From NCBI GenBank assembly GCA_031253545.1, contig JAIRWH010000072.1, positions 1 through 34,232 on the forward strand: DNA of 34,232 nucleotides, written 5' to 3'. Made by a program: the position numbers and the translations under genes. The notes beneath the pieces are model-generated. The model saw only the letters and a list, made by a program, of their open reading frames with translations, ran no database searches and was not told the origin of the DNA. Positions 593 through 664 of this stretch are shown piece after piece. The first letter of the stretch is position 1. The number at the start of each line of letters is the position of its first letter. Origin of the DNA: Oscillospiraceae bacterium (GTDB lineage: Bacteria; Bacillota; Clostridia; Oscillospirales; UBA929).

Positions 593-664
593 ATGCGGGT
601 GTTTCGCCGCCGAAAGAGCGACTTGTGTATGCGGGTGTTTCGCCGCCGAAAGAGCGACTTGTGA
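593..664 (+). repeat. Tandem direct repeat, 2 x 36 nt
   Basis: ATGCGGGTGTTTCGCCGCCGAAAGAGCGACTTGTGT / ...TGTGA; period exactly 36. Confidence 0.97.

Follow-up and report, generated by a model that had tools for sequence, protein, structure and literature searches.

Two nearly identical 36-nt repeats that precede a toxin gene raise the question of which RNA fold they adopt, and to which class of toxin-antitoxin system they belong. The stretch of DNA analyzed here (the window) is a whole contig of 34,232 bases from a 1.8-Mb genome in 96 contigs. A preliminary description had recognized crossing complementarity within each repeat and likened it to the pseudoknots of ToxI RNAs. The location of the repeats between a likely promoter and a gene for a ToxN/AbiQ-family endoribonuclease identifies the locus as a type III ToxI-ToxN system. 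Very probably it is an ordinary member of the ToxIN family in which each ToxI unit forms an H-type pseudoknot (stem S1, 598-600 with 609-611; stem S2, 604-607 with 618-621) and the toxin is inhibited in a ring. The gene order is likely promoter, two repeats, a 16-bp hairpin and toxN, with the following features:

555-583, plus strand: probable promoter, read by eye; -35 element TTGACT (555-560), 17-nt spacer and extended -10 element TGC TACCCT (575-583)
593-628, plus strand: ToxI repeat copy 1, 36 nt; found by TRF (period 36) and aligned with homologous units
598-611, plus strand: S1 of copy 1, pairs G598-C611, G599-C610 and U600-G609; double changes at all three pairs in homologues
604-621, plus strand: S2 of copy 1, pairs U604-A621, C605-G620, G606-C619 and C607-G618; 100% paired in 31 units
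614-616, plus strand: loop A-A-G, equivalent by alignment to A19 A20 G21 of ToxI, with roles taken from PMC8860590
629-664, plus strand: ToxI repeat copy 2, found by TRF; bases 663-664 are also part of the hairpin
663-697, plus strand: 16-bp hairpin between array and toxN, stem 663-678/682-697
720-1631, plus strand: toxN, 303 aa; identified by Pfam PF13958, PADLOC (AbiQ) and sequence and fold matches in the PDB
1212-1628, plus strand: C-terminal toxin extension, residues 165-303 (139 aa), helical in the AlphaFold2 model

The array (593-664) ends 55 nt 5′ of the toxN ATG at 720, and thus has the form found in the ToxIN family, a tandem array of units of about 34-37 nt directly 5′ of the toxin gene. 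Transcription from the putative promoter is predicted to start near the first repeat; this promoter was absent from the output of a consensus scan, and its -10 element is weak. The two copies are identical at 35 of 36 positions and, as first described, differ only at the final base (T628 versus A664). Their similarity had been taken to suggest recent duplication or strong constraint. A664 sits together with G663 in the 663-697 hairpin, and because copy 2 runs into this hairpin, the final-base difference marks the end of the array. No U-tract follows the hairpin at 698-712, and the same scan did not report it as an intrinsic terminator. At the corresponding hairpins of other loci, the U-tract is weak or absent in L006 and present in L020 and L053.

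Several neighboring elements were also observed. Just 5′ of copy 1, the stretch GTGCTACCCTTTAAGTGTA (574-592) resembles a ToxI unit's 3′ half. As a third repeat it was rejected, since a profile ranks it only 74th among 68,404 positions, it shares bases with the presumed -10 element and most of its stem pairing is lost; it is possibly the relic of one. Further upstream, 5′ of the promoter, positions 393-527 hold a remnant (LAKQLLENGKTEKIGGFKSKAGKGFEAALTVREDNTVGFEF) that looks like the C-terminal end of a DNA topoisomerase of TopB type. Beside toxN, the minus strand encodes a lincosamide-nucleotidyltransferase-like protein (1898-2419) whose Aminoglyc_resit domain does not reach the Lnu cut-offs, as well as an MntA-like nucleotidyltransferase domain of 69 aa (2438-2647).

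The assignment of the toxin is supported by sequence and by predicted structure. Residues 4-159 match the Pfam family ToxN_toxin (PF13958; E=7.6e-31, score 107.9 against a cut-off of 25 bits), and PADLOC assigns the product as AbiQ. Sequence matches in the PDB are the ToxN proteins of Bacillus thuringiensis, Pectobacterium atrosepticum and E. coli together with AbiQ, and the same four are the only fold matches with E <0.001 (Foldseek, 4ato, E=1.9e-11) to an AlphaFold2 model whose mean pLDDT is 82.5 and exceeds 90 across most of the ToxN domain. K37, S56, S57 and K59, the putative active site of the window toxin, align with the catalytic-site positions K33, T52, S53 and K55 of E. coli ToxN (PMC8860590). 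The exchange of threonine for serine has a precedent within the family, as AbiQ also carries a serine (Ser51) at the Thr52 position (PMC5086642).

The extension at residues 165-303, predicted to be helical, is missing from the toxin of L006. Its AEGRAE-rich tail is similar to the C-terminal end of a PDDEXK_2-family protein (L068, 1961-2533) encoded by a same-family genome (37% over 77 aa, E=1.4e-6). Descent from such a PD-(D/E)XK-type protein is possible, and is uncertain because the matched stretch is low in complexity. The extension could change how the toxin assembles. In a genome of the same genus, a segment (L003, G014:C23:16227-16388) matches toxin residues 112-165 at 54%; neither a full toxin gene nor repeats were found near this match.

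The pairing proposed in the preliminary description joined GCGG (595-598) to CCGC (607-610) and TTTCG (602-606) to CGAAA (611-615). These letters and coordinates are exact, and the complementarity is literally present. With Watson-Crick pairs only, two crossing helices, one of 4 and one of 5 bp with any loop lengths, arise in 19 of 2000 sequences made by dinucleotide shuffling of a single repeat, a chance of about 1% per 36-mer. Once G-U pairs are admitted, however, 688 of 1000 shuffles contain two crossing helices that each have 4 bp or more and together reach 9 bp, and for this reason crossing complementarity does not argue strongly for a fold. Energy calculations on the single repeat sequence are unexceptional. 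The canonical geometry, S1 plus S2 as listed above, is obtained in 97 of 1000 shuffles, and nested minimum-energy folds of a single repeat or of both together are uninformative (z-scores of +0.8 to +1.2).

Comparative evidence was obtained from homologous arrays. Searches of about 790 genomes with PF13958 yielded some 50 further loci, most with repeats upstream, and about 50 loci were examined for the whole repeat set. The closest relative found is a Synergistaceae MAG locus (L006; best segment 63% identical) that carries three 36-nt repeats in the equivalent position. A first alignment (A1) holds 31 units from related arrays, chosen by a TTCGC/TTCAC motif (two GTCGC-bearing units of L053 were added), and was made with MAFFT without reference to structure; the selecting motif belongs to both pairing models. 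Because the TTCGC anchor restricts S2 variation in A1, a second alignment (A2) was built from 36 hand-picked units across the ToxN family, with several rows that have a shorter S2 or longer L1 kept in although misaligned by one column.

Both alignments support the canonical pairing. In A1 it is formed in 98.6% of cells, with 20 double-change cells, which involve every S1 pair and one of the S2 pairs; covariation is 0.294 versus 0.155 after shuffling (reached in 0/500), and slid versions of the pairing reach at most 55% paired. In A2, 87.5% of cells are paired, a percentage biased toward the canonical model because knowledge of the ToxI layout guided the choice of units. More weight attaches to the covariation and the slid controls. 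Double changes in A2 (70 cells) affect seven of the eight pairs, including all four in S2, and covariation is 0.575 versus 0.227 in shuffles. Within one array (L012), two copies differ by a compensatory S2 change from G-C to A-U on both sides. Likewise, in a Clostridioides phage array unit very close to that of the window, GGGTGTTTAGCCGCCTTAAGAGCTT, the S2 pair C13-G28 becomes A-U with pairing kept, and the outermost S2 pair is lost.

The same data weigh against the pairs named at the outset, and we regard that arrangement as extremely improbable. It has the top stacking sum when loop lengths are ignored. Its loops L2 and L3 are both 0 nt long, tight as the preliminary description had remarked: the S2 5′ strand directly abuts the S1 3′ strand, and the two 3′ strands likewise abut each other. 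An H-type pseudoknot of this kind is not plausibly bridged by a 4-bp S1; the stems supported here leave loops of 3, 1 and 6 nt. In A1 the named pairs are formed in 56.3% of cells, a percentage equaled by slid versions, and covariation is 0.173 versus 0.152 (44/500 shuffles). In A2 they are formed in 39.6% with no covariation beyond shuffles. They break in L006 and elsewhere, including the phage unit, in which the C-G to A-U change that S2 tolerates disrupts the stem. The ToxI family is thus upheld, and covariation strongly supports an H-type pseudoknot; the supported stems reuse some of the same strands in a different register. The simpler fallback, a TTTCG/CGAAA hairpin as the sole structure, is equally improbable. 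Five base pairs closing a 4-nt loop can form in the window, but the pairs fail in many homologous units, whose pair counts reject this hairpin, and it is absent from the nested minimum-energy fold of one repeat.

A closer competitor keeps S2 and alters S1, either by shifting its register (C596-G612, G597-C611, G598-C610) or by extending it with G601-C608. The window sequence permits both, and the extended stem has the best feasible stacking energy: 598-601/608-611 with 604-607/618-621 was the best solution of a search requiring a loop of at least 3 nt across S1, and 97% of its cells are paired. This solution uses the strands of the canonical pairing and to that extent also speaks for it. However, of the two S1 pairs counted for the shifted register, each is broken in 10 of the 31 units, and G601-C608 shows no compensatory change and occupies the positions of the G5 turn and the N12 triplet in solved ToxI, leaving these variants unlikely. 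Slightly less likely still is decay of the locus to a remnant. Its two repeats come close to the reported minimum (1.8 needed for antiQ and 2.5 for ToxI-Pa; PMC5086642), the hairpin is not followed by a U-run and the toxin is extended. Nevertheless, the toxin reading frame is intact, preserves its active-site residues and encodes a ToxN domain of high confidence, and both copies retain every S1 and S2 pair.

The canonical pseudoknot can be aligned with ToxI in detail. S1 pairs GGU (598-600) with GCC (609-611) in copy 1 and 634-636 with 645-647 in copy 2, and S2 pairs UCGC (604-607) with GCGA (618-621) and 640-643 with 654-657, respectively (repeat numbering, S1 6-8/17-19 and S2 12-15/26-29). 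L1 comprises 601-603 and L2 comprises 612-617. E. coli ToxI has a four-pair S1, a sharp turn at G5, A-minor contacts by A19 and A20, and a triplet of U12-U22 with G21 (PMC8860590). In the window, G601 corresponds to G5, and A614, A615 and G616 correspond to A19, A20 and G21. G occupies the G5 position in 29 of the 31 A1 units; the 614-616 position reads AAG in 15 of 31, AAA in 7 and GAG in 4. S1 is short, with two G-C pairs and one G-U pair and a mismatch at the outer G597/G612, and the equivalent of U12-U22 is C608/A617. Comparative covariation recovers the ToxIN-family layout of S1 (1-4/13-16), G5, S2 and the A19 A20 G21 loop.

A toxin tree places the window sister to L006 (100/96). Eleven toxins whose arrays carry a UUCGC/UUCAC-type S2 strand throughout share the window's side of one branch (100/98), and the L019 toxin, whose S2 strands differ, falls inside it. 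Rfam gave a chance-level match only over 400-1000 (E=2.7, minus strand) and none at the gathering threshold in six homologous loci. A viral collection searched with the toxin sequence returned zero matches; a repeat-core pattern gave six single matches in viral contigs, none a tandem array, that were taken as chance. Elsewhere in the family, six loci ahead of one ToxN clade (100/98; L022, L037, L038, L040, L042, L044) carry arrays that combine three clearly dissimilar pseudoknot units, whereas ToxI repeats are usually near-identical; the L044 stems are UCUC/GAGA, UCUUG/CAAGA and UCGC/GCGA. ToxI units in L047, L058 and L009 have an apparent extra hairpin inserted in loop L2.

By analogy with characterized systems, the transcript would carry two ToxI units, each folding into an H-type pseudoknot, and ToxN would cut the precursor between them. 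The cut is predicted at U628/A629 (GUGU^AUGC, with the caret marking the cut; N^AU), so that copy 1 would comprise the 5′ overhang AUGC, the pseudoknot core and a 3′ overhang. The prediction follows the numbering of E. coli ToxI, whose 5′ overhang has four bases, -3 to 0 (PMC8860590). The single-stranded tails of the pseudoknots would plug the active sites of two neighboring ToxN molecules, and the RNase would be kept inactive in a closed ring until the antitoxin supply drops, for example during phage infection. We infer from this likeness that the toxin is an endoRNase neutralized by its own RNA, and processing, ring assembly and a role in abortive infection would follow the same model.

Known cleavage sites in the family are A-rich: AA^AU, GAA^AU and AAA^AA (PMC8860590, PMC5086642). 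None of these three lies between the two copies, and at the window junction ACUUGUGU^AUGC sharing is limited to the AU that follows the predicted cut. The window has this AU in common with the P. atrosepticum repeat, L006 and the phage units, and L016 and L020 also show it; junctions between pseudoknots in the nearest relatives keep little beyond it. A cleavage specificity different from that for A-rich sites is predicted from these junctions. More tentatively, the window may belong to a ToxIN branch that does without an A-rich site, has replaced the U-U-G triplet (C-A-G here) and, in this member, has gained the toxin extension, a proposal that we hold with less than even confidence.

These findings replace a guessed fold with one backed by compensatory changes and give exact pairs for mutational tests. 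The family-wide repeat set supplies covariation evidence for the ToxI pseudoknot beyond crystal structures, and the locus adds a branch of ToxIN in which the junctions between repeats point to a cleavage specificity unlike the A-rich sites measured so far. The system itself is well known, and novelty is restricted to details of this branch.

Among characterized systems, CptIN and TenpIN share the general gene order (PMC5086642). They appear to be set apart by a window toxin that is a ToxN (PF13958) and by a repeat length and loop pattern of ToxI type. AbiQ/antiQ of Lactococcus lactis (PDB 4glk) resembles the window in its ToxN/AbiQ-family toxin, its serine nucleophile position and the sufficiency of few repeats, but in antiQ the 35-nt repeat is present 2.8 times and the cut site is A-rich (PMC5086642). 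E. coli ToxIN (PDB 7d8o, PMC8860590) has an H-type pseudoknot with identical stem and loop order and matching active-site positions; in contrast, the window has C-A for U12-U22, U for A6 and no GAAAU between repeats. The plasmid ToxIN of P. atrosepticum shares a repeat of about 36 nt, S1 of GGU/RCC, G5, the A-A-G loop, a 5′ overhang starting with AU, a downstream palindrome and the ToxN fold. The repeat of its pPA21A copy (plasmid toxIN) aligns with that of the window and also has the UCGC S2 strand. The Pectobacterium system differs in having many more repeats with A-rich AAA^AU junctions, where the window has two repeats and UGU^AU, and its toxin is 32% identical to the window toxin over the ToxN domain, with the C-terminal extension present only in the latter.
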